Part shown: piece after piece, positions 6,749 through 59,752 of the stretch
Layout of the letters: each line of letters opens with the position of its first letter
How positions within the stretch are numbered: position 1 is the first letter of the stretch
Assembly: GCF_003287935.1 (NCBI RefSeq)
Contig: NZ_CP030287.1
Span: forward strand, 8,470,240-8,534,239
Source of the DNA: Streptomyces sp. ICC1
GTDB lineage: Bacteria > Actinomycetota > Actinomycetes > Streptomycetales > Streptomycetaceae
Length of the DNA: 64,000 nt
Direction of reading: 5' to 3'
The notes under the pieces: generated by a model
The model's database searches: none
Seen by the model: only the letters and a program-made list of their open reading frames with translations
Told to the model about the DNA's origin: nothing
Made by a program: the position numbers and the translations under genes

Positions 6749-6869
6749 GGGCCCATTGTGCCGGTCGCCTGGCGGCGTGCCCAAACGGTGGGTCCCGGGC
6801 CGCGGGCGGCCTGGGCCCGGAGAGGAGAAAAAGAGACAGAACCCCAGCAACGCCCCCGGGGCCGACTCC

Positions 6870-15612: not shown

Positions 15613-15957
15613 GTGGACAGACCAACCGCCGCGAACGACGCGAGGGCCATGGGCCGCGCCGCGTCCTCGCACACCGCCGCCGGCTACTGGCTGCGCCACG
15701 TCGAGCGCGTGCACGCCCGCGGGGACCGCCTCCGGGTGACCCTGGCCGAACCGGACTTCGGGTTCCCACTGATGACCTCGCTGCCCGCGCTCGCCCCGTA
15801 CCGCGGTACGGGCGACGGCGTCGGCCGGTACCGCATCGCCCGGGCGACGTCCCGCACGATCGTCCTCGACCCCCCGGCCGCACCGTCCCCAACCACGTCA
15901 CCACCCCCGTCACCGACGGCAAGGTCGCCGTCTTCAACAGCTACGGCGGCCCGCTCA
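15613..15957 (+). pseudogene. Frameshifted, truncated gene of unknown function
   Basis: A GTG at 15613 follows AGGGGAGGG at good spacing. About 85 residues read well (GYWLRHVERVHARGDRLRV, EPDFGFPLMTSLPAL, GRYRIARATSRTIVLD). At the C-run near 15870 the frame breaks: adding one C gives LDPPGRTVPNHVTTPVTDG and KVAVFNSYGGPLR, clearly continuous protein. The frame is then cut at 15957, exactly where the convergent HTH-TOBE gene begins to read. I do not recognise the family. It looks like a one-base indel plus truncation, whether mutational or a sequencing error. Confidence 0.55.
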
Positions 15958-16356
15958 GAAGGCCAGGTCGATGTGGACGTCGGTGGACTTCACCCGGGCC
16001 GTCACGGTGACCCCGACCGCGATGCCGAGCTCCTCGACGGACTCGCGGGTCACGACGGAGACCACGCGGTGCGGCCCCGACTGGATCTCGACCTGCGCCG
16101 CGACCTCGTCGAGGAGGACGGCGGTGACGATCCCGGCGAAGGAATTGCGCACGGAGGTGGCGGGGGGCGCCTCGGGCACCGGATGCAGCCCGGCGGCCCG
16201 CTCCTTGGCGAAGGCGGCCAGGTCCGCTCCGTCCACGGTCCGCACCCCGTCGGCGCCGCGGCGCGCGGACAACCGCCCCCCGTCGGCCCAGCGGCGGACG
16301 GTCTCGGGACTGACGCGCAGCAGGCCGGCGGCCTGCCCGATGGAGTACGACGGCAC
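15955..16356 (-). CDS. Helix-turn-helix plus TOBE (Mop-like) molybdate-binding protein
   Basis: 133 residues. An N-terminal MerR/excisionase-like helix-turn-helix (YSIGQAAGLLRVSPETVRRW then ADGGRLSARR, residues 4-33) is joined to a single TOBE/Mop domain (SVRNSFAGIVTAVLLDEVAA, about 68-87, through STDVHIDLAF at the end). TOBE domains bind molybdate or related oxyanions, so this is probably a molybdate-sensing regulator or store. The GTG start lies ten bases from the end of a MITE copy, which therefore occupies the position of its promoter and leader; expression may have been altered by the insertion. Confidence 0.88.
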   Translation of the reverse strand: MPSYSIGQAAGLLRVSPETVRRWADGGRLSARRGADGVRTVDGADLAAFAKERAAGLHPVPEAPPATSVRNSFAGIVTAVLLDEVAAQVEIQSGPHRVVSVVTRESVEELGIAVGVTVTARVKSTDVHIDLAF

Positions 16357-16365
16357 GTGCGCAGC

Positions 16366-16530
16366 CTAGTGCCGTGACCGGAAAGGTCCACCGGGTCGCG
16401 GCGCCCGGCACGGCACCTCGCCGCGTTGTCGGACCACGCGAGTACGTCCAGTACGCGACGTGATCCTCCGCCTTGCGATGCACCGCACCGGACACCGCGA
16501 CCCGGCAAACCTTTCCGGTCACGGCACTAG
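16366..16530. mobile_element. MITE copy A (165 bp, perfect 22-bp terminal inverted repeats, CTAG ends)
   Basis: The ends are exact inverted copies, CTAGTGCCGTGACCGGAAAG plus GT, and the similarity continues imperfectly for about 20 bases more. The interior contains no gene. A closely related 191-bp copy lies at 44725-44915 and a solo end at 32890-32905. The shared CTAG at both termini is either part of the element or its target duplication. No transposase is present, so movement would need one supplied elsewhere. Confidence 0.85.
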
Positions 16531-16664
16531 CGCCGCGGCGGGGGCGCCGGAGGGCCTGGGGGGATGCAGCGAAGCTGGCTAAAAGGGAGAAAAGGGGCGA
16601 GGGGCGTAGCGTCGTGTAGTAGCGACCAGGAAATGGCCGCGGCATGGAAAGAAGGGTGCCGCTG

Positions 16665-17579
16665 ATGTCCGTACCGCCCGTTCCGCCTGTCCCGCCTGTC
16701 CCGCCTGTTCCGCCTGTTCCGCCTGTTCCGCCTGTTCCGGCCGTCCCGGCCGTCCCTCCCGCGCCTCCCCTCCCCTTCCTCGTCGGCTTCGACGGGTCCT
16801 TCCGCAGCCTCGCAGCCGCCCGCTGGGCGGCCCGTGAGGCCGCGTCGGCGGGGGCGCCGCTCCGGCTGCTCCACGTGGGCCAGGCCTGGCCGACCGTCCA
16901 GCCGATCTCCCCCGAGTTCCAGCCGGTGCTCGGCGAGAGCGAGCTCGCGATGGTGTCCGTACTGGCGTCGCTCGCCGCGGAACTGCGCGCCGCGCACCCC
17001 GGGCTGACCGTCGAGACGGCCACCGCCGAGGGCGGGCCGGGCAACGAGATCCCGCGCGCGGCCGCCCGGGCGAACGCCGGGCTGATCGTGCTCGGAGCGA
17101 GCGGCGACCACCACCACCTGGTCCCGCGGCTCGGCTCCACCGCCCTGCACGTGGCCGGACGCGCCGAAGTCCCCGTCGTCCTGATCCGGGAGCCCGCCGA
17201 GCGGGAGCGGCGCGGGCGCGGGGTCGTCGTCGGGGTGGACCCGGCGGGCGACCACGTCCCCGTCCTCGAGTTCGGGTACGCGTGGGCGGCCGCGCACGGG
17301 CTGCCGCTGCGCGCGGTGTACGCGGTGGGCAAGGGCTCGGCGGCTGCGGAGGGGCTCGAAGCCGCAGTGGCCGCGGTCTCCGCGCGCCATCCGCGGGTGG
17401 CGACCGAGTGCGTCAGCCTCCCGGGAGACGCCGAGCGCGTCCTGGTCGACGAGTCCGCGTCCGCCGGCCTCCTGGTCGTCGGCCGCCGCCGCCACCGACC
17501 CCTCCACGGCATGGGCCCCACGGACCACGCGGTGGCCCACCACGCCGGCGGCCCGGTGGCCCTGATCCCCCACGGCTGA
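16665..17579 (+). CDS. Two-domain universal stress protein with Pro-Val repeat N-terminus
   Basis: 304 residues, cytoplasmic. Two tandem Usp domains: the first begins PFLVGFDGSFRSLAAARWA and ends with the ATP-binding pattern G-2x-G-9x-G-S (GASGDHHHLVPRLGS); the second begins GRGVVVGVDPAGDHVP and ends VVGRRRHRPLHGMGP, a less canonical loop. Before them is an unusual stretch of about ten P-P-V / P-A-V triplets encoded by tandem 9-bp repeats. The ATG at 16665 has GAAGGG nine bases upstream; an ATG at 16644 is in frame. Such proteins support dormancy and stress survival. It is preceded by MITE copy A and about 130 bp of leader. Confidence 0.9.
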   Translation: MSVPPVPPVPPVPPVPPVPPVPPVPAVPAVPPAPPLPFLVGFDGSFRSLAAARWAAREAASAGAPLRLLHVGQAWPTVQPISPEFQPVLGESELAMVSVLASLAAELRAAHPGLTVETATAEGGPGNEIPRAAARANAGLIVLGASGDHHHLVPRLGSTALHVAGRAEVPVVLIREPAERERRGRGVVVGVDPAGDHVPVLEFGYAWAAAHGLPLRAVYAVGKGSAAAEGLEAAVAAVSARHPRVATECVSLPGDAERVLVDESASAGLLVVGRRRHRPLHGMGPTDHAVAHHAGGPVALIPHG

Positions 17580-17624
17580 GTCCCACGGCCGATCCCCCGG
17601 AGCCCCCGTGGCAGGCTGGCCCGC

Positions 17625-17939
17625 ATGAACGAGCCGACCGCGCCGACCGCGCCGACCGCGCCGACCGCGCCGACCGACCCCCGCAACCCGGCGGGCATCA
17701 GGGTGGGGGACGTCTACGAGGACTGCTTCTTCCACCCCGTCCTCTGCACCGACATCGAGGAGAACGCCGGGCTCGTGCTCAGCGGGGTGTCGCTGATCGA
17801 CGGCACGCACCCGCGCTCGTGCGACGCGCTGTACTGCGAGCCCGTCAGGATCCCGGTGGAGTCCGTGATGGAGATCAAGCGGGACCTCGGCGCCTACACG
17901 GCCCGCCGCCAGGCCGAGCGGGCCGGCGGCCCCGCCTGA
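17625..17939 (+). CDS. Conserved small hypothetical protein
   Basis: 104 residues. The N-terminus is a T-A-P tandem repeat (MNEPTAPTAPTAPTAPT) from a 9-bp microsatellite. The globular remainder (GIRVGDVYEDCFFHPVLCTD, then GVSLIDGTHPRSCDALYCEP) has four cysteines and an acidic character, and ends with an Arg-rich helix. I do not recognise a named family. It stands alone 45 bases after the stress protein, in the same direction, and may be cotranscribed with it. Confidence 0.8.
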   Translation: MNEPTAPTAPTAPTAPTDPRNPAGIRVGDVYEDCFFHPVLCTDIEENAGLVLSGVSLIDGTHPRSCDALYCEPVRIPVESVMEIKRDLGAYTARRQAERAGGPA

Positions 17940-17976
17940 CCTGTCTGACCCGCCTGAGCCGCCGTGCGGGAGCGCG

Positions 17977-19755
17977 TCACTGCCGCAGCAGGACGATCAC
18001 AGAACCCCACATCGTCAGCAGGATGTTGCCCAGCGCGTACGGGACCGTCGTGCCCAGCGCCGGGATCTGGCTGCGGGCGCGCTCCGTGAGGGCGCCGAGG
18101 GCGGCGGTCGTGGTCTGGGCGCCGGCGAGGGCGCCGAGCAGGATCGGCAGGGGCAGCCGCTGCACGAAGTGCCCGTACGCGAATCCGGCCAGCAGCGGCA
18201 CGGTCGTCACGGCCGCGCCCCAGAACAGCAGCGGCCAGCCGGCCTCGCGCAGGCCGGGGACGAAGCTCGGGCCGGCGTTGAGGCCGACCACCGTCACGAA
18301 CACGCACAGCCCGAGCGTGCCCATCAGCCACTGCGCTGCCGACGGCAGGTTCCCGTACGTCGGGTACTTGCTCCGGATCCAGCCGAAGACCAGGCCCATC
18401 AGCAGCGCCCCGGTGGAGGTCGACAGCGACAGCGGGGCGCCCGCCGCGTGCAGGGCGGGGATGCCCAGGCAGCCGCCGAGGAACAGGCCGAGCGCGATCC
18501 ACACCATGTCCGTCGCGAAACTGGTCGGCACCGGCTTGCCCAGCCGCTCCGCGGCCGCCTGCACCCGGCTGCGGGGCCCGGTGAGCACGAGGGTGTCCCC
18601 GCGCTCCACGGTGCTGTCGAGCCGGACCCGCAGGTCGGCGCCGGCCCGCCAGTGCTCCTCGACGAAGACGCCCGGCATGAACTCCTCGTGGCGCAGGGTG
18701 CGGATGGTGCGCACGCCCGGCCCGCTCGGCCCGCCCGCTGCGGCCACTGTGCCCCGCCCGCCCCGCCCGCCCCGTCCTTCGCGGTTCCGCTCGGTGACGA
18801 CGACGTGCAGGGATTCCGTGCGGTAGGCGAGGAGTTCGAAGTCGTCCGTCTCCATCCCGATGTGCGTGCGCGCGTCGTAGGAGACGAGGTCCCCGCGGAC
18901 CGCGCTGACGGCCAGCACGTCGCCGAGCTCGATCCGGGTGCCGGGGGTGTGCTCCAGGATCTCCCCGGCGCGGCGCAGCCGGGTGATGTAGACGCGCCGG
19001 CCCGCCGCCTTCTGCTCGGCCTCGAAGTCGCCGATGGTGCGTCCGGCGAAGGCCGCCACGTCGACGGCGTAGGCGCGCAGCACGTGCTTGTAGTAGCCCT
19101 CCCCGGCGTCGGGGTCGTTCTCGGCGGCCTCCAGGTCGGCGGCCAGTACGGCGCTCTCGGCCGCGAGGTCCCTGTGTAGGAGGCGGGGCAGCACGCCGGC
19201 GAGGAGCAGCGCGGGCAGGACCGTACCGAGGGGGTACGTGACCGCGTAGGCGACGGCGATCAGGTGCGCCTGGTCCCGGGCCTCACCGGCGTCGATGCCG
19301 GGCAGGTGGGCGATGGCGTCGGCGCCGACGCCGATGACGGCGGACTGGGTGAGGCCGCCGCCGAGCAGCCCGGCGGAGAGGCCGGGCCCGTAGCCGGCGA
19401 GGGCGGCGAAGGCCCAGGCGGTGGCGAGGCCGGTGACGCAGACGATGAGGGCGAGGACGACCTGGGGGAGGCCGTCCTTGCGCAGGGCGCGGAAGAACTG
19501 CGGGCCGACGTCGTAGCCGAGGGCGAAGAGGAACATGAGGAAGAAGACGGACTTGATCGGCCCGTCGATCTCCACCTTGGCCTGGGAGCCGATGACCAGG
19601 CCGGCGACGAGGCAGCCGGTGACGGCGCCCAGGGCGATCGACTTGTAGCGGATGCGGCCGAGCAGGAAGCCGACGGCGATGGTCAGGAAGATCAGCAGCT
19701 CGGGGTAGGGCCGGAAGATCTCCGTCCTGAGCCAGTCCGTCCACGCCACCCGCAC
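17977..19755 (-). CDS. AspT/YidE-type transporter with two RCK (TrkA-C) domains
   Basis: 592 residues. The layout is that of the aspartate-alanine exchanger family: five or six helices (PELLIFLTIAVGFLLGRIRY, FFLMFLFALGYDVGPQFFRA with the family G-Y-x-V-G-P-x-F-F motif), a central soluble region with two TrkA-C-like domains (about 220-400, including IELGDVLAVSAVRGDLV and VERGDTLVLTGP), then a second helical half (VFVTVVGLNAGPSFV). It should exchange small carboxylates or amino acids across the cytoplasmic membrane; the substrate is not evident. No ATG is available; GTG 19755 or GTG 19749 are the candidates after a GGGAAG site. Confidence 0.9.
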   Translation of the reverse strand: MRVAWTDWLRTEIFRPYPELLIFLTIAVGFLLGRIRYKSIALGAVTGCLVAGLVIGSQAKVEIDGPIKSVFFLMFLFALGYDVGPQFFRALRKDGLPQVVLALIVCVTGLATAWAFAALAGYGPGLSAGLLGGGLTQSAVIGVGADAIAHLPGIDAGEARDQAHLIAVAYAVTYPLGTVLPALLLAGVLPRLLHRDLAAESAVLAADLEAAENDPDAGEGYYKHVLRAYAVDVAAFAGRTIGDFEAEQKAAGRRVYITRLRRAGEILEHTPGTRIELGDVLAVSAVRGDLVSYDARTHIGMETDDFELLAYRTESLHVVVTERNREGRGGRGGRGTVAAAGGPSGPGVRTIRTLRHEEFMPGVFVEEHWRAGADLRVRLDSTVERGDTLVLTGPRSRVQAAAERLGKPVPTSFATDMVWIALGLFLGGCLGIPALHAAGAPLSLSTSTGALLMGLVFGWIRSKYPTYGNLPSAAQWLMGTLGLCVFVTVVGLNAGPSFVPGLREAGWPLLFWGAAVTTVPLLAGFAYGHFVQRLPLPILLGALAGAQTTTAALGALTERARSQIPALGTTVPYALGNILLTMWGSVIVLLRQ

Positions 19756-19922
19756 CCACCCGCTTCCCGCCCGCACCGCGCCGCTCCGGGCACCTCTGGG
19801 CACCTCCAGAGAACGGTATGTCCGGGTATGCCCCCACGCACGCCCAGTCCGGGCGGCCGGGCGGGTGGTCCCTGGCGTCGTGGTCGACGCGATCACGGAT
19901 GGGGAGCCGACCGGGAACGCAA

Positions 19923-19952
19923 AGAGCCCCACCGCAAGCGGTGGGGCTCTTC
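19923..19952 (-). terminator. Terminator downstream of tRNA-Ser
   Basis: AGAGCCCCACCGC and GCGGTGGGGCTCT pair around a four-base loop; on the minus strand the stem is followed by TTT. It lies 27 bases beyond the 3' end of the tRNA and fits intrinsic termination of that transcript. Confidence 0.9.
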
Positions 19953-19978
19953 AACGTATTGCCCGGTGAGAGCAATGG

Positions 19979-20063
19979 CGGAGGATACGAGATTCGAACT
20001 CGTGAGGGGTTGCCCCCAACACGCTTTCCAAGCGTGCGCCCTAGGCCACTAGGCGAATCCTCC
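19979..20063 (-). tRNA. tRNA-Ser (anticodon GGA)
   Basis: 85 bases. Acceptor arms GGAGGAT and ATCCTCC pair, the anticodon stem-loop ACGCTTGGAAAGCGT carries GGA, the long variable arm TGGGGGCAACCCC is typical of serine tRNAs, and the T arm has GAGTTCGAATCTC. The 3' CCA is not encoded. It is followed on the minus strand by a strong terminator and lies divergent from the SRP RNA gene. Confidence 0.96.
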
Positions 20064-20162
20064 GCGGCAAACAATACAAGACGTTGAGGGGTGCTCGCGA
20101 ACGTGATCGACCGGCGGTGATCCCGGTGGGGTCCGGCTCGATTCCCGGGCGCTTCATCCGCT

Positions 20163-20262
20163 AGGGTGGGGCCAGCCCCTCACGTGGCGCTATCTCACCC
20201 AACTCCCCCAGGGCCGGAAGGCAGCAAGGGTAAGTGGGCTCTGGCGGGTGCGTGGGGGGCGC
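20163..20262 (+). ncRNA. ffs: Signal recognition particle RNA (small bacterial 4.5S type)
   Basis: The conserved apical domain is present (GGCCGGAAGGCAGCAAGG with the GGAA tetraloop and the asymmetric internal loop), enclosed by pairing flanks GGGTGGGGCCAGCCCC and the GGCTCTGGCGGGTGCG side. It forms the RNA core of the particle with Ffh that targets membrane proteins. In many Gram-positive genomes this RNA precedes dnaX; here adapter-like sequence begins about 20 bases after it and no dnaX follows. Exact ends are approximate. Confidence 0.88.
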
Positions 20263-20281
20263 TTTGCGTTCTGGGACGGGT

Positions 20282-20351
20282 CTGTACCTTATACACATCT
20301 GACGCTGCCGTCGAGCTCCTCTGTGTATATCTCAGTCGTCTCCGTATCCTC
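20282..20351 (+). other. Nextera-type sequencing adapter remnant (i5 side)
   Basis: The run reads CTGTACCTTATACACATCT, then GACGCTGCCGTCGA, eight index bases, then GTGTATATCTC...CGTATC. This is the Nextera mosaic end, read-2 linker, index and flow-cell sequence in the right order and spacing, with scattered mismatches. Its translations include the well-known contaminant peptides LYTSDAA and YTHLTLP. It is not biological and marks a contig end or false join between the SRP RNA and the isomerase gene. Confidence 0.95.
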
Positions 20352-20392
20352 AAACGACCCTTCTCAGCGCCCCGTGCCCCCGGGCGCCCGCG

Positions 20393-21238
20393 TCACCCGA
20401 CGTGTTCGCGGTAGCGCTCGACCACCTCCCGCAGCACCTCTCCACCGTCCCGGGCCCACAGCCCCGGATGGAAGATCTCCACCTCCACCGGCCCCCGGTA
20501 CCCGGCGGCGTCGGTCAGCTCCCGGAAGGCCCTGAGGTCGATCGAGCCATCGCCCAACTGCCCCCGGCCGAGCAGTACGCCCTCGGGGAGCGGGGTCACC
20601 CAGTCGGCGACCTGGACGGACACGATCCGCCCGCCCTCGCCGGCCCGACGCAGCTCGGCGGGGAGCCGCTCGTCCCACCACAGGTGGTAGGAATCGACCA
20701 CCACCCCGACCCGTTCCGCGGGGAACCGCTCGGTGATGTCCAGGGCCTGCCCGAGCGTGGAGACCACGCAGCGGTCCGACGCGTACATCGGATGCAGCGG
20801 CTCGATCCCCAGCCGCACCCCGAACCCGGCGGCATACGGCGACAACTCGCCCAGGATGTCGACGATCCGCTCCCGGGCCCCCGCCAGATCCCGGTCGCCT
20901 TCGGGCAGTCCGCCCGAGACGAGGACCAGCACATCGGCCCCCAGCTCGGCGGCCTCCTCCACGGCCCGGCGGTTGTCCTCCAGGGCGGCGGCGCGCCCCG
21001 CGGGGTCGGCGGCGGTGAAGAAGCCGCCCCGGCACAGCGAGCTGACCCGCAGCCCCGCACCGGCGACCAGCTTCGCCGCCTCCCGCACCCCGAACCTCCG
21101 CACCGGATCGCGCCACAGCCCGACCGCGCCCACCCCGGCCGCCGTGCACCCGGCGACCAGCTCGGGCAGCGACCACTGGCGGATCGTCTCCTGGTTCAGG
21201 CTGAGCCGGGCCGGCGCCGGTGCCGGTGCCCCGTTCAC
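20393..21238 (-). CDS. Sugar phosphate isomerase/epimerase (xylose isomerase-like TIM barrel)
   Basis: 281 residues. AP-endonuclease-2/xylose-isomerase-like barrel: SLPELVAGCTAAGVGAVGLW at the first strands, GADVLVLVSGGLPEGDRDL, GVRLGIEPLHPMYASDRC with the metal-binding Glu and His, VGVVVDSYHLWWDE with the next Asp/His pair, and VEVEIFHPGLW near the end with the final Glu. These match the divalent-metal site of sugar isomerases and inosose-type enzymes. GTG 21238 overlaps the preceding stop as GTGA. It is the third gene of a LacI-controlled operon; the substrate is probably a sugar or cyclitol intermediate. Confidence 0.9.
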   Translation of the reverse strand: MNGAPAPAPARLSLNQETIRQWSLPELVAGCTAAGVGAVGLWRDPVRRFGVREAAKLVAGAGLRVSSLCRGGFFTAADPAGRAAALEDNRRAVEEAAELGADVLVLVSGGLPEGDRDLAGARERIVDILGELSPYAAGFGVRLGIEPLHPMYASDRCVVSTLGQALDITERFPAERVGVVVDSYHLWWDERLPAELRRAGEGGRIVSVQVADWVTPLPEGVLLGRGQLGDGSIDLRAFRELTDAAGYRGPVEVEIFHPGLWARDGGEVLREVVERYREHVG

Positions 21239-22392
21239 GACGAAACCCCGTGCAGGGAGAGCAACTGACGCATCCGGGCCTCGGCGAGCTCCGGGTCCGG
21301 GAACAGGCCCAGGTCGTCGGCCATTTCGTACGCGGTCGCCAGATGGGGGAGCGAGCGGGCCGAGTGCAGCCCGCCCACCATCGCGAAGTGCTCCTGGTAT
21401 CCCGCGAGCCAGGCCAGCAGGACCACCCCCGTCTTGTAGTAGCGGGTGGGCGGTGCGAACAGGTGCCGCGAGAGCGCCACCGTCGGATCCAGCAGCTCCC
21501 GGAACCCCGCCGGATCCCCCTCGTCGAGCGCGAGCGCCGCACGGGCCGCGATCGGGGCGATCGGATCGAAGATGCCCAGCAGGGCGTCGCTGGCCAGCTC
21601 CCCGTCCCCGGCGATCAGTTCCGGATAGTGGTAGTCGTCCCCCGTGTAGCAGCGCACCCCCGCCGGCAGCCGCCGCCGGATGTCCACCTCGCGTCCCGCG
21701 TCGAGCAGCGAGACCTTGATCCCGTCGACCTTCTCCGGACACTCAGAAATGATCTTCAGGAAGACCTCCGTCGCCTCGTTCAGGTCCTCGTGCCCCCAGT
21801 AGCCCTCCAGAGCCGGGTCGAACATCGGCCCCAGCCAGTGCAGGACGACCGGCCGGGCGCTCTGGCGCAGCAGCCCCCCGTACACCTCCAGATAGTCCTC
21901 GGGGCCGCGCGCCGCGGCGGCGAGGGCGCGCGAGGCCATCAGCACGGAGCCCGCACCGCACGCCTCGACATGCGCCAGCTGCTCCTCGTACGCCGCGGTG
22001 ACGGCGGCCGTCGAATGCAGCGTGTCCGCGGACAGTTGGTCGGTGCCCGCCCCGCAGACGATCCGCCCGCCCACCGACCGGGCCTCGGCGGCCGACCGGC
22101 GGATCAGCTCCGCGGCGACCTGCCAGTCCAGGCCCATCCCGCGCTGCGCTGTGTCCATGGCCTCGGCCACGCCGAGCCCCTGCGCCCACAGCCGGTGCCG
22201 GAAGGCCAGTGTGGTCTCCCAGTCGATCACCGGCGCGGAGTCGGCCGAGGCGAAGAGGGGATCGGCGACCACGTGCGCGGCCGAATAGAAGGTGCGGCTG
22301 CCGGCCGGGGCGCAGTTCAGCGGGGCCAGCGGAACGCTGGTCGGCGTGTGCGGGCGGAAACCGCCGTCCATCGACGGGAGCCGGATGCTCAC
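21235..22392 (-). CDS. DUF993 protein, dihydrodipicolinate synthase-like aldolase family
   Basis: 385 residues. A long TIM-barrel protein of the DUF993 group: SRTFYSAAHVVADPLF near the N-terminus, GRIVCGAGTDQLS, RPVVLHWLGPMFDPALEGYW and GIKVSLLDAGREVDIRR, where the Lys in GIKVS is the likely Schiff-base residue by analogy with class I aldolases of the DHDPS superfamily. The reaction is unproven; carbon-carbon cleavage of a keto-sugar acid is a fair guess. It overlaps both neighbours by GTGA, so all three genes are coupled. The GTG start is set by that overlap. Confidence 0.88.
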   Translation of the reverse strand: MSIRLPSMDGGFRPHTPTSVPLAPLNCAPAGSRTFYSAAHVVADPLFASADSAPVIDWETTLAFRHRLWAQGLGVAEAMDTAQRGMGLDWQVAAELIRRSAAEARSVGGRIVCGAGTDQLSADTLHSTAAVTAAYEEQLAHVEACGAGSVLMASRALAAAARGPEDYLEVYGGLLRQSARPVVLHWLGPMFDPALEGYWGHEDLNEATEVFLKIISECPEKVDGIKVSLLDAGREVDIRRRLPAGVRCYTGDDYHYPELIAGDGELASDALLGIFDPIAPIAARAALALDEGDPAGFRELLDPTVALSRHLFAPPTRYYKTGVVLLAWLAGYQEHFAMVGGLHSARSLPHLATAYEMADDLGLFPDPELAEARMRQLLSLHGVSS

Positions 22393-23540
22393 AGCGTCAC
22401 CTCCGGCACCGCGAGCCGCCGGCCCTCGGCGGAGGAGCGCAGTCCGAGATCGGCCAGCTGCACCCCGCGGGCCCCGGCCAGCAGGTCCCACTGCCAGGGC
22501 TCGTCCAGGACGACGTGGCGCAGGAACAGCTCCCACTGGGCCTTGAAGCCGTTGTCCGCGGGGTTGTTGTCCGGGACCTCCTGCCACTGGTCGCGGAACC
22601 GCTCGGTCAGCGGCAGGTCCGGATTCCACACCGGCTTCGGCGTCGCCGCGCGGTGCTGGATCCGGCAGCCGCGCAGCCCGGCGACCGCCGAGCCGTGCGT
22701 CCCGTCGACCTGGAACTCCACCAGCTCGTCGCGGTTGACCCGGACCGCCCAGGAGGAGTTGATCTGCGCGACCGCACCGCCCTCCAGCTCGAAGGTTCCG
22801 TACGCCGCGTCGTCCGCGGTGGCCTCGTACGGCTTGCCCTCCTCGTCCCAGCGGCGGCCGATGTGGGTGCGCGTCAGTGCCTGCACCGTGCGGACCCGGC
22901 CGAACAGCTCGTGCAGCAGGTACTCCCAGTGCGGGAACATGTCGGCGACGATCCCGCCGCCGTCCTGCGTCCGGTAGTTCCACGACGGCCGCTGGGCGGG
23001 CTGCCAGTCGCCCTCGAAGACCCAGTAGCCGAACTCCCCGCGCACGGAGAGGATCTCGCCGAAGAACCCGCCGTCGATGAGCCGCTTGAGCTTCAGCAGG
23101 CCCGGCAGGAACAGCTTGTCCTGCACCACTCCGTGCTTGACCCCGGCCGCGTCGGCCAGCCGGGCGAGCTCGAGGGACGACGCGAAGGTCAGGGCGGTGG
23201 GCTTCTCGCAGTACACGTGCTTGCCGGCCGCTATGGCCTTGCGCACGGCCGCCTCGCGGGCGCTGGTGACCTGCGCGTCGAAGTAGACCTCGACCCCGGG
23301 ATCGGCCAGGACCGCGTCAAGGTCCGTGCTGACGTGCTCCAGCCCATGCCGGTCGGCGATGGCCCGCAGGGCCGCCTCGCGGCGCCCGACCAGCACCGGC
23401 TCCGGCCACAGCACCGTGCCGTCGCCGAGGTCGAGTCCGCCCTGCTCGCGCAGTGCGAGCAGGGAGCGGACCAGGTGCTGGCGGTATCCCATCCGCCCGG
23501 TGACGCCGTTCATGGCGATCTTGATCGTCCTGCGCTCCAC
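22389..23540 (-). CDS. Gfo/Idh/MocA-family oxidoreductase
   Basis: 383 residues. An N-terminal NAD(P)-binding Rossmann fold (IKIAMNGVTGRMGYRQHLVR, residues 6-25) is followed by AGKHVYCEKPTAL, the EKP motif that carries the catalytic Lys, and by the C-terminal beta-sandwich (GGGIVADMFPHWEYLLHELF). It should oxidise a sugar, sugar acid or cyclitol hydroxyl. GTG 23540 has GAAGGAGG at good spacing and is the first gene of the operon, read away from the LacI gene and its two operators. Confidence 0.92.
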   Translation of the reverse strand: MERRTIKIAMNGVTGRMGYRQHLVRSLLALREQGGLDLGDGTVLWPEPVLVGRREAALRAIADRHGLEHVSTDLDAVLADPGVEVYFDAQVTSAREAAVRKAIAAGKHVYCEKPTALTFASSLELARLADAAGVKHGVVQDKLFLPGLLKLKRLIDGGFFGEILSVRGEFGYWVFEGDWQPAQRPSWNYRTQDGGGIVADMFPHWEYLLHELFGRVRTVQALTRTHIGRRWDEEGKPYEATADDAAYGTFELEGGAVAQINSSWAVRVNRDELVEFQVDGTHGSAVAGLRGCRIQHRAATPKPVWNPDLPLTERFRDQWQEVPDNNPADNGFKAQWELFLRHVVLDEPWQWDLLAGARGVQLADLGLRSSAEGRRLAVPEVTL

Positions 23541-23602
23541 GGTGTCCCCCTCCTTCGTCTTGTGCGGTGTGGCTTGTGCGGTGTTGCAGGGAAAGCAGCA
23601 TA

Positions 23603-23682
23603 GAAAGCGCTTTCACTTCCAACAGGCTAGGGCCGCGCAACGCGGCGGTGCAAGACTCTTACGGGTGATAGAAAGCGCTTTC
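23603..23682. promoter_or_regulatory. Twin LacI-type operators in the divergent promoter
   Basis: GAAAGCGCTTTC occurs twice, at 23603-23614 and 23671-23682, 68 bases apart. Both are perfect palindromes with the central CG typical of LacI/GalR sites. They lie between the catabolic operon and the LacI-family gene, so cooperative binding (possibly looping) and repression of both directions is expected. Confidence 0.88.
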
Positions 23683-23753
23683 TCAATCGGCGACTATGGA
23701 GATCCACACACCGGATGAGACGATGACCGGGGACGATCGGAAGGAGGGGTCTG

Positions 23754-24818
23754 ATGGCAGTCACGCTCGCCGAAGTGGCGGTGCGGGCAGGGGTGTCGCC
23801 CGCGACGGTCTCGCGCGTGCTCAACGGCGGATATCCGGTGGCCGGCGCCACCCGGACCCGGGTGGAGCAGGCCGTCGAGGACCTCGGCTACATCGCCAAC
23901 GGCCCCGCGCGGGCCCTGGCCGCGGCCACCTCCGACCTCATCGGCGTCCTTGTCCACGACGTCGCCGACAGCTTCTTCGGGATCCTCGCCGGCGCCCTGC
24001 AGGGCGCCCTGGCGCCCAGCGGCCAGGGCGATGCCCGCAGGCTCGCCGTCGTCTGCAACACCGAGGGGGATCCGGCCGCCGAGCTCGCCTACCTCGCCCT
24101 CCTGGAGGGCCAGCGGGCCGGCGGTGTCGTCCTGACCGGCGGAGCCGTCGAGGAGCCGGAGCACACCCGGGCACTCGCCGCCCGCCTCGCCCGGATCGCG
24201 GCCACCGGCGCCCCCGTGGTGCTGTGCGGCCGCCCCCCGCTGCCCATGCCCGCCGGACTCCCCGTCGCCACCGTCATGTTCGACGACCGCGCCGGAGCCT
24301 TCCGGCTCACCGAGCACCTGCTGGCGCTCGGCCACCGCCGGATCGCCTACGTCGCGGGCCCACCCGGGCTGAGCACCACACGCGAGCGCCTCGCCGGTCA
24401 CCGGGACGCCCTGCACGACCACGACCCCGCACTGCCCGAGCGGTGCGCCGCCCTCACCGTGCACGCCGGGTTCGAGCGCTCCGCGGGGTATGACGCCACC
24501 CGCGAACTGCTGCGCCGCGGCGCCCCCTTCACCGCCGTCGCCGCGGCCAACGACACCGTCGCCACCGGGGTCGCCGCCGCCCTGCGCGAAGCCGGCCTGC
24601 GGATACCCGAGGACGTGTCCGTCGCCGGATTCGACGACCTGCCCGTCTGCGTCGACACCGCGCCGCCGCTCACCACCGTCCGGGTGCCGCTGCGCGAGGC
24701 GGGCGTGCTCGCCGCCCAGCTCGTCACCGGCCGCAGAGCACTGCCCCCGGGCGGCATCACCATGCTGCCCGCCGAGCTGATGGTGCGCGGATCCACCGCG
24801 CCGCCGCCCGCCCCGTGA
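23754..24818 (+). CDS. LacI-family transcriptional regulator
   Basis: 354 residues. The first 50 hold the LacI helix-turn-helix and hinge (VTLAEVAVRAGVSPATVSRV, LNGGYPVAGATRTRVEQAV). A periplasmic-binding-like effector domain follows (LIGVLVHDVADSFFG, GAPVVLCGR, HRRIAYVAGPPG, FTAVAAANDTVATGVAAALR, VSVAGFDDLPVC). Start ATG has AAGGAGG eight bases upstream. It should repress the divergent three-gene operon through the two GAAAGCGCTTTC sites, with a sugar-like inducer. The last codons overlap no gene, but a Nudix fragment on the other strand is cut off exactly at its stop. Confidence 0.95.
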   Translation: MAVTLAEVAVRAGVSPATVSRVLNGGYPVAGATRTRVEQAVEDLGYIANGPARALAAATSDLIGVLVHDVADSFFGILAGALQGALAPSGQGDARRLAVVCNTEGDPAAELAYLALLEGQRAGGVVLTGGAVEEPEHTRALAARLARIAATGAPVVLCGRPPLPMPAGLPVATVMFDDRAGAFRLTEHLLALGHRRIAYVAGPPGLSTTRERLAGHRDALHDHDPALPERCAALTVHAGFERSAGYDATRELLRRGAPFTAVAAANDTVATGVAAALREAGLRIPEDVSVAGFDDLPVCVDTAPPLTTVRVPLREAGVLAAQLVTGRRALPPGGITMLPAELMVRGSTAPPPAP

Positions 24819-24951
24819 ACCACCAGTCGTCCGCCGGGTCCGAGGGCTCGAAGCCGTGCAGCAGCAGGATCCGGTCCGCGGGGTCCAGCAGGATCACCCG
24901 CGACACCTTGCGCGGACCGCCGCCGGCCCCGTCCCGCAGGCCAGCGGACAC
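24819..24951 (-). pseudogene. Nudix hydrolase, N-terminal fragment
   Basis: About 44 codons read RKVSRVILLDPADRILLLHG then FEPSDPADDWWFT, the first strands of a Nudix domain. The family continues WWxTPGGGxxxGE into the Nudix box, but here the match ends at WWFT, precisely at the LacI stop codon on the other strand. No Nudix box (GX5EX7REUXEEXGU) is present, so it is not functional as read. A deletion or a false join at 24818 explains it. Confidence 0.7.
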
Positions 24952-26990
24952 CGGCCCGCGCCCTCCTGCGCCCGCGCCCGAGAACCCGTACGACCGGCCC
25001 GTACGCGGCTCCGAGCAACACCAGGGCGACGCCGCCGGCCACCGCCGCCACCACCGCCACCGCCGTACGGGTCCTGGTAGCCCCGTACGTCCTGCTCTGC
25101 CAGCTGCTGCGCCTGGCGCGCGAGCGAGTCCGCCTGCTGGGCCTCGGCCAGCGCGCCCGCCGGATCCGACCCCGCCAGGGACGTGGACCGCTCCAGGTGG
25201 CGCTGCGCCTCCGCCAGCCGGGTGCGGGCCTGGCTGCCGACCGCGCCCCGGCTGGTGGTGATGTAGTCCGCGGCCGCGCCGATCGCGCTGCGGGCCGTGA
25301 GCAGGGCCTGGTCGAGCAGGGCCGCCGCCCGCTGTCGGCCCGACTCGCGCTCGCGCGCCCCGGCCAGCGCCTCGTCGAGGGCCGCGTCGGCCTCCTCCAC
25401 GCGGCGCAGGGCGTCCAACGGGTCGTACCGGCCCGCGGCCTGCTCCTGGCGTACGCCGGCCAGTACGGCCTCCGCCCGGCCGATCCGGCCGCGCAGATCG
25501 GCGGTCGAGGTGCCCTCGGCGGTGCCGGTCAGCAGCCCGCGCGCGTCGGCGAGGTCCGTGTCCGTCTCGCCCAGGGCGCCCGGCAGCTTCCCGGCGGCCT
25601 CCGCCAGCTCCTGCGCGCGCCGCTCCACGGCGTCGACGAGGGTCGTGGCCTGGTCGACGGCGCCCTCGGCGGCGCGGACGTGCACGGCGGCCTTGCCGTT
25701 GTCGCCCGCGACGATCGCGGCGCGCGCCTCGCCCAGGCTGGTCGTCGCGAACAGCAGCCGGTCCTTGGCCTGTTCGGGGTTGGACGACACGGGGGCGGCC
25801 GCCGAGTCCGCGTACTGCCGGCCGAGCGCGACGAGGGTCGCCTCCGCCGTCGTGGTGCGGCCCGTCAGCGTGCGGAAGTGGACCTCCACGGTGGCGAGGG
25901 CCTCCGGGGCGTTCTTCTCCAGATCCCGCAGCCGGTCGAAGTCCGCGGTCTCGGCGTCCAGCCGGCGGCTCGCCTCGGTGCAGCGCGCCACGATCTCGTC
26001 CAGCATCCGGCGCCGGGTGGCGTCGTCCTCCGGGTAGGCGTCGTCGAGCTGCTGGCGCAGCCGGAACGCGGCGGTCAGCTCGCCCTTCCCGTACTCCACG
26101 GCCTCGGTGAAGGCCGATACGGCCTCCTCGCCGAACTGGGCCGTCGCGAAGCCGAGTTCCTCGGTGCTGGTGCGGATCGCGTCATCGGTCTCCACCAGCA
26201 GGGCCTTGGCCTTCGCGTCCAGCTCGGGGAGGGGGAGCGGGGCCGGCGGGGTGTCCTGCCCGGACCAGCCGGTGGTCTTCGGGCCACCGCCTCCACCGGC
26301 GTTCCGGCGCTTGCGGCGGGAGTACGCGTACGCCCCGAGGGCGCCGGCCGCGCCGACCGCGACCACCGGGAGGACGAAGTCCCCGGTGCCGCTCTCGCCG
26401 CTCGCGGCGGAGCCGCCCGGGTCGGCCACGCCGGGGGTGATCGCGGGCACCGGTACGGGCTTCCCGGCCAGGACCGCGCCGTAGCCGTTCGCGGCGCCGA
26501 TCGCGGCTCCCGCCCAGTCGTTCTCGCGCAGGGCGGGCTCGATCGCGGTCCGCGCGACGGCCGCGAGCTGCTCCTCGGTGAAACCGGATGCGGCATCGGC
26601 CGAATAGGCGTACTGCCGGGCCCCGGTGCCGACGGCCAGCAGGACGTCGTTCTGGCCGAGGCCGTTCTTCTCGGCGGTGGCGTCGGCCCAGCTCTGCGCG
26701 GAGCGGCCGGAGAAATCGCGCACGTACGTGACGAACAGCTGGACCCTCTGGTCGGCGTACAGCTTGTCCAGCGCGGCCGTGACGGCGGCCTTGCGGTCGC
26801 CCAGGGCGCCCACGCGGTCGGTGATCTGGCCCTGCGCGGACAGGGTGACCGGGTCGTCGGCCCGGGCGGGCGGCGCGGCGGCCGCCGCCCAGCCGGAGAG
26901 CGCGAGCAGCGCGGCGGCGAGGGCGAGGCCGGTCCGGACGGGTATGCCGGCGGTGGGGCGTCTCTTCGTCCTGCTTCTCGGCGGAGTCAC
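24894..26990 (-). CDS. Secreted TPM-domain protein with long coiled-coil region
   Basis: 698 residues. A signal peptide (GLALAAALLALSGWAAAAAP, about 20-40) leads to a TPM domain (TLP18.3/Psb32/MOLO type; YADQRVQLFVTYVRDFSGRS, NDVLLAVGTGARQYAYSAD, ALRENDWAGAAIGAANGYGA) at about 50-180. A transmembrane helix (FVLPVVAVGAAGALGAYAYS, near 205) and basic anchor RRKRR follow, then some 400 residues of helical, Glu/Ala/Arg-rich coiled coil. The family usually ends in a Gly-rich tail; here GYQDPYGGGGGGGG runs into an unrelated Arg-rich tail overlapping the Nudix fragment, so the last 50 residues are suspect. GTG 26990 lacks a clear ribosome site. Role: membrane-associated, function undefined. Confidence 0.85.
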   Translation of the reverse strand: MTPPRSRTKRRPTAGIPVRTGLALAAALLALSGWAAAAAPPARADDPVTLSAQGQITDRVGALGDRKAAVTAALDKLYADQRVQLFVTYVRDFSGRSAQSWADATAEKNGLGQNDVLLAVGTGARQYAYSADAASGFTEEQLAAVARTAIEPALRENDWAGAAIGAANGYGAVLAGKPVPVPAITPGVADPGGSAASGESGTGDFVLPVVAVGAAGALGAYAYSRRKRRNAGGGGGPKTTGWSGQDTPPAPLPLPELDAKAKALLVETDDAIRTSTEELGFATAQFGEEAVSAFTEAVEYGKGELTAAFRLRQQLDDAYPEDDATRRRMLDEIVARCTEASRRLDAETADFDRLRDLEKNAPEALATVEVHFRTLTGRTTTAEATLVALGRQYADSAAAPVSSNPEQAKDRLLFATTSLGEARAAIVAGDNGKAAVHVRAAEGAVDQATTLVDAVERRAQELAEAAGKLPGALGETDTDLADARGLLTGTAEGTSTADLRGRIGRAEAVLAGVRQEQAAGRYDPLDALRRVEEADAALDEALAGARERESGRQRAAALLDQALLTARSAIGAAADYITTSRGAVGSQARTRLAEAQRHLERSTSLAGSDPAGALAEAQQADSLARQAQQLAEQDVRGYQDPYGGGGGGGGGRRRRPGVARSRVRAGRTGSRARAQEGAGRCPLACGTGPAAVRARCRG

Positions 26991-27012
26991 ATTTGGGAGA
27001 GTATGGGCCGTT

Positions 27013-27060
27013 CCACACCCCCGCACCCGGAGCCGGCCACACCCCCGCACCCGGAGCCGG
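27013..27060. repeat. 24-bp direct tandem repeat, two exact copies
   Basis: The unit begins CCACACCCCCGCACCCGGAG and ends CCGG. Two exact copies lie head to tail in the 100-bp gap upstream of the TPM-domain gene. No function is evident; the repeat occupies the place where its promoter or leader should be. Confidence 0.9.
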
Positions 27061-27087
27061 CCGAGCCCCGGCCGGCCCCCGCGGTGG

Positions 27088-29268
27088 TTACGGCAGCCCG
27101 TACGCCGCGAGCTCCGGCCGGGACAGGACGAGGTGGCCGCCGACGAGCACGGCGTCCCCCTCGGCGAGCGCCGGGTGCACCCACTGGCGCAACTGCCGGC
27201 CCGTCGCCGGGTCCAGGACGGCGACGAAGGGACCCGCCTCCCGGCCCAGCAGTCCGCGCCGGCCGCCGGACCGGGCCCGCACGTACAGGCCGCCCGGCCG
27301 CAGGCCCAGCAGTTCGAGCGTGCACTCGGCGGCGTCGTGCCGGACCACGGTCCGCTGCCAGCGCAGCGCCCCGGTCTCCGCGTCCAGCGCGAAGACCAGG
27401 TCACCGCCCTGCGCGCGGTGCGCGGCCGCGTACACCGTGCCGCGCTCGACGAGCGGCCCCCGCGCCCGGACCCCCAGGGCGAACTGCCACAGCTCCCGGC
27501 CGGTCCCGCCGTCCAGGGCGCGCAGGACCTCGCCGTCCAGCACGTGCACGGGCCGCTGGGCGTGCGTGCGCTCGAAGGCCTCCCGGCCCCGCAGCTGCGA
27601 CCAGGTCCGGCGCCCGCTCATCAGGTCCAGCGCCTGGAACTGTCTCTCGTCGCCGAGGAGCAGGCAGTCGCCGACCGCCGCGGCGGAGCGGGTGGACGGG
27701 TCGGTCACCGCGCGCCGCCACAGGATCTCGCCCGTCGCCGAGTGCAGGGCGGTCAGATCGCCCGGCGCCCCGTGGAGCAGCACCGGACCGATGCTGCGCA
27801 GCGCCCCCGCCGACGGCAGGTCCCGCCACCACCGCACCCGCCCGTCGCGCGGCTCCCGCGCGAGCAGCCGCACCCCTTCCTCGCCGCCGCGCCCCACTTC
27901 GACGTACACCGTGGCGGCGTCCGCCGCGCTCCGCGCCCACACCTGCCCGGTTCCGGGCAGCGCCGGCGCGGCCGCGCCCGCGTCGGCGTGGGCCGTCCAC
28001 CGGGTCGTGCCCGCCTCGGCCCGTACGCAGCCCACCTCGGTGCCCGCCCGCCACACCACGTGGGCTCCGGCCGCGTGCAGTTCGTCCGGGCGGGCGTCGC
28101 CGCGCCACGCCTGCTTCCCGGGGGCCGCGGTCGGGGTCCCGGAGCGCCGCCCCGCGTCCGGGCCGCCCAGGTCCGTCCTCTCGGCCGGTGCGCTCCCCGC
28201 GGCGGCGGCCTCCGCCGGCCAGGGGGCCCGGCCCGCCGCCACGCACTCCCGCGCGGTACGGGCCAGCGCGCGGGCCCGGTCGGCCGCTTCGGGCAGGTTG
28301 CGGGCCCGGCCCGCGCGCTCCCGCGCGGCCGCCGGGTCCAGCGGCGGCCGTGCACCCCGCTCGACGCTCTCGCGGGCGCGGGCCAGCGAGTCCAGGCCGT
28401 GGCCGGCCTTCTCGTCGGCGGCCTCCTCGGGGTGGCGGCGCAGCAGGCCTGCGGCCTGGTTGCGCAGCCGCTCCGCCCGGACGAGCCGCCCCTGCTCGGC
28501 GTGGTGCGCGGCCTCCTCGCGCAGCCAGGCCGCCCGCTCCTCCAGGAACAGCGGCAGCTCCTGTTCGGCCTGCTCCAACGCCCGGGCCCCGCCCGCCGGG
28601 TCCCCGGCTTCGGCCAGATCGCGCGCCACCTGGCACAGCGCCAGCAGCCGGCCCCCGGCGGAGCCGATCCGCTCGCTCAGGCGCAGGGCCGCCGACAGGT
28701 CGCGCGGGGCGACGGCCAGCACCATGTCGTAGGTGGCGGCCCCGCGCAGCCCGGCGTCCGCGATCGACGCCAGCCGGAGCTCGGCCTCCCCGGGGTCGGC
28801 CGCGTTGACGGCGGTGCCGATGCGGGCGCGGAGCCGGTTGTCGGCCGGGCTGCCCTCGAAGTGGTACTCGGCGATCAGGGCGGCCTGCTCGGGGGCGACC
28901 CGGGCCAGCTCCTCCGCCACCGCGCGCAGCGGGCCCCGCCGCTCCGCGCCGGACACCGTGAACAGTGCCTGCTGGGCATCGGTCAGCAGCCGCCGGGCCC
29001 GCGCCGGGGCGTGCGCCGCGGTGGCCTTGGCCAGAGCCGTCAGCAGCCGGGCCACCCGCGCCCCGTCGCCATCGCCGCCGGTCCACGCCGCGCTCTCGGC
29101 GTCGGCCAGCAGCCGGGCCGCGAGCTCCGCGTCGAAGCGGGCCGCGGCGTCGGCGCCGACCGCCAGCACCTCGATCCGCGTCACGCTGTCCGCCGGCAGC
29201 GCGCGCAGCGCGTCCTCGGCCTCCAGCAGCAGCTCCCGTACGAACTCCCGCACCCCGACGGGCACCAC
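27088..29268 (-). CDS. PQQ-like beta-propeller protein (5' end damaged)
   Basis: About 726 residues. The first 400 are Ala/Arg/Glu-rich helices resembling TPR-like or coiled-coil scaffolding (LRLASIADAGLRGAATYDMV, LFLEERAAWLREEAAHH). From about 420 an outer-membrane-BamB/PQQ-like propeller follows, with repeating blades such as AEAGTTRWTAHADA, SATGEILWRRAV, DGGTGRELWQFALG and DAETGALRWQRTVV. It has no signal peptide as read, but the true start is unknown: upstream in frame lies a TAG within adapter sequence (29281-29333), so the N-terminus is probably missing. Role unknown; such proteins often act as scaffolds or sensors. Confidence 0.8.
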   Translation of the reverse strand: MVPVGVREFVRELLLEAEDALRALPADSVTRIEVLAVGADAAARFDAELAARLLADAESAAWTGGDGDGARVARLLTALAKATAAHAPARARRLLTDAQQALFTVSGAERRGPLRAVAEELARVAPEQAALIAEYHFEGSPADNRLRARIGTAVNAADPGEAELRLASIADAGLRGAATYDMVLAVAPRDLSAALRLSERIGSAGGRLLALCQVARDLAEAGDPAGGARALEQAEQELPLFLEERAAWLREEAAHHAEQGRLVRAERLRNQAAGLLRRHPEEAADEKAGHGLDSLARARESVERGARPPLDPAAARERAGRARNLPEAADRARALARTARECVAAGRAPWPAEAAAAGSAPAERTDLGGPDAGRRSGTPTAAPGKQAWRGDARPDELHAAGAHVVWRAGTEVGCVRAEAGTTRWTAHADAGAAAPALPGTGQVWARSAADAATVYVEVGRGGEEGVRLLAREPRDGRVRWWRDLPSAGALRSIGPVLLHGAPGDLTALHSATGEILWRRAVTDPSTRSAAAVGDCLLLGDERQFQALDLMSGRRTWSQLRGREAFERTHAQRPVHVLDGEVLRALDGGTGRELWQFALGVRARGPLVERGTVYAAAHRAQGGDLVFALDAETGALRWQRTVVRHDAAECTLELLGLRPGGLYVRARSGGRRGLLGREAGPFVAVLDPATGRQLRQWVHPALAEGDAVLVGGHLVLSRPELAAYGLP

Positions 29269-29280
29269 CGTGCTCTCGCG

Positions 29281-29333
29281 CCGCCCCGAGACCTACACCG
29301 AGTGGACCTGCGGCACCGTCAGAGGTGTACAAG
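29281..29333 (-). other. Nextera-type adapter remnant (i5 side), strongly degraded
   Basis: On the plus strand CGAGACCTACAC, eight bases, then CTGCGGCACCGTCAGAGGTG and TACAAG align with the adapter order GAGATCTACAC-index-TCGTCGGCAGCGTC-AGATGTGTATAAG; 24 of 33 bases match in the second half and 10 of 11 in the first, at the exact index spacing. Mismatches are mostly toward G/C. It truncates the propeller gene on its left and separates it from the crystallin-like gene. Confidence 0.8.
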
Positions 29334-29760
29334 CGCCGGCCCCGACCCCGTGCCCCGCGACCCCGTGTCCCGCGACCCCGTGCCCGGTGTCCCCGTGCCG
29401 GGCAGTGCCCCGTGCCCGGTGTCCCCGCGACCCCGCCGCTCGAGCGGGGAGAACGCGACAATCGCCCGACCGGAGCCCGGCTGCCCCGGTGCGCACCTCT
29501 TCAGCCAGATTTGTCACCCACGGCCGTGCCCGCGCCGCTCCGGGACCGTGCCGGGCCGCGGGTCCGGCACGGCCGCGGCACCCGCCGGCACGGTGATCAG
29601 GCCAGCGGGAGGCCCGGGCCGGGACCGGTGTCGGGTGAATCGAATTTGCCACCGTCACATCCGCCCCCTCGACGGACGACCGACCGGACTTGTTGAGTCA
29701 TGTCGTGGTTCAGCGCGATTCGCGCACCGAGCCCTCTGTCATCCCGTTTGAGGAGACTTC
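29334..29760. other. 427-bp gene-poor stretch with CCCGTG/CCGCGAC micro-repeats
   Basis: From 29340 to about 29440 the sequence is built of short repeated units (CCCGTGTCCCGCGAC and CCCGTGCCCGGTGTC variants), coding only low-complexity peptides. The remainder holds no convincing frame and presumably contains the promoter of the downstream secreted-protein gene. I saw no tRNA or known RNA. Confidence 0.6.
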
Positions 29761-38098: not shown

Positions 38099-38153
38099 GC
38101 AGCCCCTGCCCCCGTCCCGTCCCCCCGTCCCACCCTGTCCGGGCACCCCCGCA

Positions 38154-38168
38154 TGTCTCTTATTCACA
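38154..38168 (+). other. Nextera mosaic-end remnant (partial adapter)
   Basis: TGTCTCTTATTCACA matches 14 of 15 bases of the Nextera mosaic end (TGTCTCTTATACACA). On the minus strand it supplies the TGA that truncates the putative glycosidase gene. It marks a contig end between the DUF4287 gene and the ABC sugar operon. Confidence 0.88.
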
Positions 38169-38637
38169 AGCGGGAGGCGGGCAGGCGGAGGTGGACGACG
38201 TGGGTGTCGTTCTCCTCGGAGACGCCGAACCGGAGCGTCGCCTCGGGTACCGGGTCGGCGGCGGCGAAGGTCAGCAGGGTCGCGCCGGAGTGGTCGTACA
38301 GGCAGCCGGCGGCGTGTCCGTCGACCAGCGAGACCCGGGAGCGGCCCTCCCAGTCCGCGAGGAGGGTGCGCCGCCAGCCGCCCTGCGGGTGCCAGTATCC
38401 GGCGGCGTCGCCGAGGGGCACGGAGAAGCGGATCTCGACGGGGGCTCCGTCGGCCCGCACCTCCAGCACGCGCAGTCCGCCTTCGGGCTCGCCGAGCGAC
38501 CAGGTGGGGCGGACGCCCAGCGCGTGGGCGAGGACGGCGATCGAGACCCCGTCGAGCAGCGGCTCGCCCCGGGCCGGCGCCAGCCCCGCGGTGGTCACGG
38601 CCTCGGTTCCGTCCGCCGGGGCGGTGGTGGTCTGCAC
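38164..38637 (-). CDS. Putative glycoside hydrolase, N-terminal part (truncated by adapter)
   Basis: About 157 native residues. The segment (LEVRADGAPVEIRFSVPLGD, AGYWHPQGGWRRTLLADWEG, LRFGVSEENDTHVVHLRLP) reads like the N-terminal beta-sandwich of an alpha-galactosidase-type (GH36/GH31-like) enzyme, consistent with being the fourth gene of an ABC sugar operon. The protein ends abruptly in adapter sequence, so the catalytic barrel is missing from this assembly. GTG 38637 is chosen because AAGGAG is five bases upstream; a GTG at 38643 overlaps the permease stop. The enzyme class is inference. Confidence 0.65.
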   Translation of the reverse strand: MQTTTAPADGTEAVTTAGLAPARGEPLLDGVSIAVLAHALGVRPTWSLGEPEGGLRVLEVRADGAPVEIRFSVPLGDAAGYWHPQGGWRRTLLADWEGRSRVSLVDGHAAGCLYDHSGATLLTFAAADPVPEATLRFGVSEENDTHVVHLRLPASRL

Positions 38638-59744: not shown

Positions 59745-59752
59745 CTGCGCCG

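Follow-up and report, generated by a model that had tools for sequence, protein, structure and literature searches.

We consider it highly probable (about 0.96) that a stretch of 70 bases lying between the small SRP RNA and a sugar isomerase gene of Streptomyces sp. ICC1 is an untrimmed Nextera adapter terminating a short-read contig, and that approximately 700 contigs, sorted by length, were joined without spacers into one sequence of 9.03 Mb. The site is an artefact, not a biological feature. The adjacency of the SRP RNA and the sugar isomerase gene is false, and over distances greater than about 4.5 kb the order within the window (the whole stretch of 64,000 bases analysed here, bases 8470240-8534239 of the record) is false as well. 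The record (G000) comprises 9034319 bases, given as a single contig with 100% completeness and 1.19% contamination.

An adapter between the SRP RNA and the sugar isomerase gene

The window was searched with a 70-base query consisting of the mosaic end, the i5 linker, an 8-base index and P5, in which the index was set to TCTACTCT. The preliminary description had claimed a near full-length Nextera i5-side adapter at positions 20282..20351, and both the adapter and its coordinates were confirmed. The letters on the plus strand there are CTGTACCTTATACACATCTGACGCTGCCGTCGAGCTCCTCTGTGTATATCTCAGTCGTCTCCGTATCCTC, and the alignment to the Nextera i5/P5 read-through sequence (mosaic end, i5 linker, index GCTCCTCT, P5), which had been suggested as a check, gave 59 identities in 70 positions without a gap. 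The index at this site differs from TCTACTCT at two positions. When the reversed 70-base adapter was used as a control over the whole window, the score never exceeded 33. The runners-up on the plus strand scored 51 (at 55488) and then 34, and the top score on the minus strand was 45 (at 29339), followed by 35; the scores of 51 and 45 are those of adapter sites themselves. Furthermore, the 22-base core CTTATACACATCTGACGCTGCC was present as an exact copy at 20288-20309 and, with up to three mismatches, at three places in the window, and was absent at that tolerance from 100 shuffles of the window.

On the left of the adapter lie a tRNA-Ser (GGA) gene (19976..20063, minus strand, called by ARAGORN) and the bacterial small SRP RNA (20171..20269, plus strand, RF00169, 62.4 bits), whose end is 12 bases away from the adapter. 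On the right, a xylose-isomerase-like TIM barrel, the sugar isomerase, is encoded at 20393..21217 on the minus strand (PF01261, E 3.3e-39). The adapter would form the right end of the contig with the tRNA-Ser and the SRP RNA.

Adapter remains in the window and along the record

Other adapter remains were found in the window. A degenerate i5 adapter at 29280..29339 on the minus strand (34/45 and 45/70 identities) marks the left end of the next contig. An i7/P7 adapter with the index TAGGCAGG, followed by poly-A, lies at 42499..42558 on the plus strand (38/45; locus L075), and an i5 adapter lies at 55488..55530 on the plus strand (39/45 and 51/70 identities); each is the right end of a contig, and the reading frame on the left of the latter is open up to the adapter. 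Weaker remnants were seen close to boundaries predicted from the spacing described below: an i7 remnant at 6795..6839 on the minus strand (26/45, 24/33), approximately 150 bases from the boundary at 6686; an i5 remnant at 59745..59777 on the plus strand (22/33, 26/45), beside that at 59812; and an adapter-like remnant at 38153..38185 on the plus strand, beside that at 38132, whose score of 20/33 is reached or exceeded in 1.7% of background stretches.

Sister sites occurred throughout the genome. With up to three mismatches, the i5-type core was found at 72 places (38 forward and 34 reverse, 7 without mismatch) and the i7-type core at 36 (21 forward and 15 reverse, 5 without mismatch), and the 108 places amount to 107 separate sites; neither reversed pattern was found anywhere in the genome at the same tolerance. 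The sites were distributed unevenly, with 4, 1, 2, 3, 5, 8, 16, 22 and 40 per successive Mb along the record and a further 7 in the final 0.03 Mb. Many sites extend into the index, P5 or P7, almost complete i5 and i7 adapters being among them, and some run onward into poly-A; poly-A or poly-T stands beyond the adapter at, for example, L049, L051, L062 and L075. At L005, L039 and L062, the sequence past the adapter is T-rich or AT-richer, resembling read-tail junk, in a genome that is GC-rich.

The sample indices were tallied over 58 loci (L021-L078), of which 13 had an intact i7 linker core and 21 a readable i5 index. The majority letters of the i7 index were TAGGCATG, found exactly in 5 and with at most one mismatch in 7 of the 13 readable i7 sites, the seventh letter being a tie between T and C; the i7 sites were consistent with one sample index throughout. 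The i5 index was noisy, with the consensus TCTACCCC, and TCTACTCT was exact in 1 and within one mismatch in 5 of the 21 sites. We take the i7 and i5 indices to be the commercial N706 and N504.

Spacing of the adapter sites

The gaps between consecutive sites were whole-number multiples of a unit length, which becomes shorter toward the end of the record. This unit was 18136 and 18119 bases near 5.56 Mb, 15189 and 15194 near 6.0 Mb, 12.6 kb near 6.66 Mb, 10.1-10.2 kb near 7.26 Mb, 7.0-7.1 kb near 7.95 Mb, 4962-4873 bases near 8.40 Mb, approximately 4.3-4.6 kb (4.55-4.33 kb) across the window, 1.75-1.8 kb near 8.90 Mb and 0.6-0.7 kb near 9.02 Mb. The boundary spacing shrinks monotonically, which is explained if contigs were arranged from long to short and then joined; contigs in their true order would not give it. 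We take the spacing of the scars to show this head-to-tail joining.

The spacing was fitted to 65 sites in the last 0.64 Mb (8.39-9.03 Mb), each with at least 28/45 identities, a threshold at which the reversed adapter gave 1 match in the same stretch. The best whole-number assignment departed from a strictly falling staircase by an excess variation of 0.37. When the sites were jittered by up to 2500 bases, the mean excess was 4.38 and the minimum 2.15; when random sites of matched density were drawn, the mean was 7.35 and the minimum 3.10. In neither null set, both of which cover this 65-site fit, did any of the 300 trials reach the observed value. After addition of the N-run anchors and of the region 7.97-8.37 Mb (93 anchors), the excess rose to 1.13. 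A fit over 0.34-8.49 Mb, the whole-genome fit, gave an excess of 0.11 with 449 pieces (0.12 with 505 from another starting guess), and 242 pieces were assigned from 8.49 to 9.03 Mb, so that the record would consist of about 700 pieces in all (750 from the alternative starting guess).

Partial adapters were considered as a marker of every boundary and rejected. Among 237 interpolated boundaries in the last 1.06 Mb, 3.4% had a partial adapter of at least 21/33, against 0.4% of the background, and the mean best adapter score was 17.1 at these boundaries and 17.0 in the background. Most boundaries are interpolated and have no adapter, which counts against the concatenation of length-sorted contigs. 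The noise of the i5 index, the higher excess with the enlarged set of anchors, the slight overrun of two predicted boundaries by synteny matches and the perfect cores among the surviving adapter sites (both described below) speak against it as well.

Gene order in relatives and the position of dnaX

In four of the five relatives compared, both sides of the 20.3 kb site had strong matches on one contig, far apart from each other. The block with the tRNA-Ser and the SRP RNA (window 19901-20280) matched at 4.30 Mb in G012, 4.14 Mb in G014, 3.99 Mb in G005 and 4.76 Mb in G018 (3.99-4.76 Mb overall), whereas the isomerase block matched at 3.29, 2.76, 2.35 and 3.01 Mb, respectively. Window positions 20412-23534 and 23752-24805 form one collinear block in these four genomes, at 2.35-3.29 Mb. 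From 24800-24815 onward, the matches map elsewhere (e.g., 6.17 vs 3.29 Mb in G012); this break falls where the spacing had predicted a boundary (24810), at a place without a visible adapter.

Three neighbouring contigs can be proposed from these results. One, at 15790..20342 according to the spacing model, would carry an Asp/Ala-exchanger-like permease (PF06826), the tRNA-Ser (GGA) and the SRP RNA, its left end being interpolated and its right end being the adapter. The next, at 20352..24817, corresponds to the collinear block in relatives and would carry the TIM-barrel sugar isomerase, DUF993, a GFO/IDH/MocA oxidoreductase and a LacI regulator; its right end, at about 24817, has no visible adapter, and the LacI-type gene ends at 24818, beside the predicted boundary. 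The third, at 24818..29260, is proposed from the spacing model and maps elsewhere in relatives. Pfam gave no family for the 45-residue fragment on the right of the 24.8 kb break, and a likeness of this fragment to a NUDIX N-terminus was noticed by eye only. As the contigs near the window are approximately 4.3-4.6 kb long, with inferred lengths of about 4.55, 4.47, 4.43 and 4.33 kb at this rank, the window consists of about 15 unrelated pieces.

In the parts of the window compared with relatives, the predicted boundaries were 15790, 20342, 24810, 29279, 42559, 46889, 51218 and 55548. Crossing was defined as more than 60 bases of a match on both sides, and 65 match rows were used, mostly the strongest, with weaker rows left out. 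By this measure, synteny matches crossed none of the 8 predicted boundaries and 160 of 262 control positions. Three match rows overrun 51218 or 46889 by 51, 56 and 59 bases, just within the 60-base margin; an overrun in this direction is expected because equal division of falling lengths sets the boundaries slightly early.

The position of dnaX was also inspected. The preliminary description had stated that the SRP RNA is followed by dnaX in many Gram-positive genomes but not here, and its absence from this place was confirmed. In all 11 loci read, out of 38 relatives with a match, the dnaX start motif stood 99-373 bases past the SRP motif. In this genome, dnaX does not start in the few hundred bases after the SRP RNA: the SRP RNA is at 8490410-8490508 and the dnaX match starts at 8945012, 455 kb apart. 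The SRP RNA itself is at 8.49 of 9.03 Mb, compared with 3.3-4.8 Mb in G005, G012, G014, G018 and G024. When a four-piece interval of the spacing fit was divided equally, a boundary fell near 8944971. Most likely, the natural link between the SRP RNA and dnaX was broken between two contigs, and it is probably intact in the organism. After the dnaX match, an inverted dnaX segment was seen at about 2861-3003 of L079 (G000 8946372-8946514), resembling a fold-back chimera near a predicted contig end, together with a transposase-like frame (DDE_3, PF13358).

N runs beside adapter remains

In a contiguous read-out of 1.06 Mb, 13 runs of N, each 26-47 bases long, were found. Eleven directly adjoin remains of the mosaic end, the linker or P7, and the other two consist of 47 N each, followed by at least ten A. 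A run of 47 N followed by at least ten A occurred three times in all, and the i7 adapter together with its index, counted from beyond the mosaic end, also measures 47 bases (the 66-base query minus 19). At position 8938772, CTTATACCCATCT is followed by 47 N and then by ten A. Lying inside adapters, the N runs look like masked good adapter copies, in which case mainly error-rich copies would survive. The masking was incomplete, since the core is free of mismatches at 12 of the 108 surviving sites. In the first 0.6 Mb, N runs were absent and adapter sites of at least 27/45 numbered 3 (reversed control, 0), and few sites are expected there because the pieces are tens of kb long.

Before two of the runs of 47 N with poly-A, at G000 8620011 and 9012087, stand closely similar stretches with GACAGACGCCAC at their end, perhaps collapsed-repeat ends or a chimeric tail.

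Adapter matches in other genomes

An exact 27-base adapter core was searched for in named drafts. Among the 85 matches listed, which lie in 80 listed stretches (at least 120 found), 81 were within 100 bases of the end of their piece and all 85 within 500; judging from their lengths, these pieces reach contig ends. Among the matches listed, the orientation was minus at the left end and plus at the right end. This fits the arrangement expected in the present record, where a plus adapter would end the contig to its left, whereas a minus adapter would begin the one to its right.

Across the genus, the i5 pattern matched in 42 of 392 genomes, this genome included, most often in G136 (154) and in this genome (72), while the reversed i5 control gave one match in each of 5 genomes. 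Thirty other genomes had minus-strand matches among those listed (about ten per genome at most), and in 22 of these no such match was more than about 145 bases away from the start of a contig, as adapters at contig ends would give; in the present genome, all sites lie within one sequence. The remaining eight were G136 and seven genomes whose listed matches all have 2-3 mismatches, which may be chance or natural sequence. G136, of the same genus and 5.9 Mb in size (e.g., C139-C143), contained 154 i5-type and 80 i7-type sites, many of them distant from the ends of contigs several hundred kb long; it may be a second genome with suspect joins, perhaps a related case. G355 was considered as a second single-contig case and rejected, since its 6 i5-like sites all have 2-3 mismatches and the i7 pattern did not occur in it.

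The 22-mer AGGCACATCTGACGCTGCCGAT, three mismatches away from the adapter core, was observed at G316:C1:12804 and 9256547 and also in G112, G202, G371 and G388. The two copies in G316 are in opposite orientation at 12.8 kb and 9.26 Mb of the first contig, as terminal inverted repeats would give, and the 22-mer is probably natural sequence, not adapter.

Discussion

The record may have arisen as follows. Library inserts shorter than the read length would have let reads run on into the Illumina Nextera adapter, and the assembler would have retained the noisy adapter tails at contig ends. Some 700 draft contigs would then have been pasted head to tail, from longest to shortest and without spacer, into 9.03 Mb, and a screen would have replaced the good adapter copies with N, leaving mainly error-rich ones. 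The SRP RNA would stand beside the sugar isomerase by an accident of contig rank.

If the chromosome order were correct apart from one local misjoin at 20.3 kb, which was the scope of the preliminary description, the adapter and the synteny break at that place would be explained. The false adjacency suspected there held, with both sides far apart in four relatives and dnaX 455 kb away, but the scope was too small: the one site noted is one of about 700 joins, most of them without a visible adapter. The 108 adapter sites, the spacing law along the genome, which refutes a local event, and the predicted loss of synteny at 24.8 kb, a place free of visible adapter, make the single misjoin very unlikely. 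We regard it as equally unlikely that the contigs stand in their true order, taken from a reference or long-range data, with adapters merely filling the gaps. Adapter within scaffold gaps is conceivable and N runs do exist, but pieces in true order would not be sorted by length, which refutes this reading; nor would such an order place the SRP RNA 455 kb from dnaX, or at 8.49 Mb when five relatives have it at 3.3-4.8 Mb.

The mosaic end is derived from Tn5, and its 19 bases are common to engineered Tn5, so that Tn5-like insertions of real transposon DNA in the strain might come to mind. However, i5 or i7 linkers are present at the sites, at many of them together with P5 or P7, an index and poly-A, which refutes this origin, and the sites are mostly single and obey the contig spacing; transposon insertion is hardly credible. 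It is improbable that the concatenation was made downstream by a data pipeline from a public record that is an ordinary multi-contig draft, as other genomes of the same collection retain their contigs (e.g., 630, 740 and 1140). The joining of length-sorted contigs carrying untrimmed adapters is preferred.

The same adapter in the same orientation is found as Nextera read-through at contig ends of drafts such as Streptomyces catenulae NRRL B-2342 and S. harenosi PRKS01-65; here, in contrast, the contigs being joined, their ends are buried inside one continuous sequence. Concatenation of draft contigs into pseudomolecules is a recognised practice that likewise joins contigs head to tail into one sequence, whereas the present record has no spacer and no reference order and is sorted by length. 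Wrong joins inside genomes deposited as complete, as this one is listed, are described in the part of PMC7111523 drawn on here. The cases in that part are repeat-bounded flips detected by GC skew, whereas here essentially every join is arbitrary. Among the papers judged by title and the start of the abstract, together with the parts of PMC10898089 and PMC7111523 drawn on, none was recognisable as covering this genome or length-sorted concatenation.

With one contig, 100% completeness and 1.19% contamination, this genome would pass routine filters. Nevertheless, its long-distance gene order is untrustworthy. Joins occur every 4.3-4.6 kb in the window and every 0.6 kb near the end of the record, and claims on gene neighbourhoods, operons, biosynthetic clusters, synteny, the replication axis or islands that span any of the approximately 700 joins are void. 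Reading frames that are chimeric over joins can enter protein databases. At the same time, the scars allow approximate contig boundaries to be recovered without reads. We tentatively raise the possibility, which we hold to be rather doubtful, that spacer-free draft concatenations form a recurrent and largely unflagged class of 'single-contig' species-representative genomes, for which adapter fossils together with shrinking spacing would be a read-free test. If this is true, the adapter-spacing test would find such genomes and recover their original contig lists.
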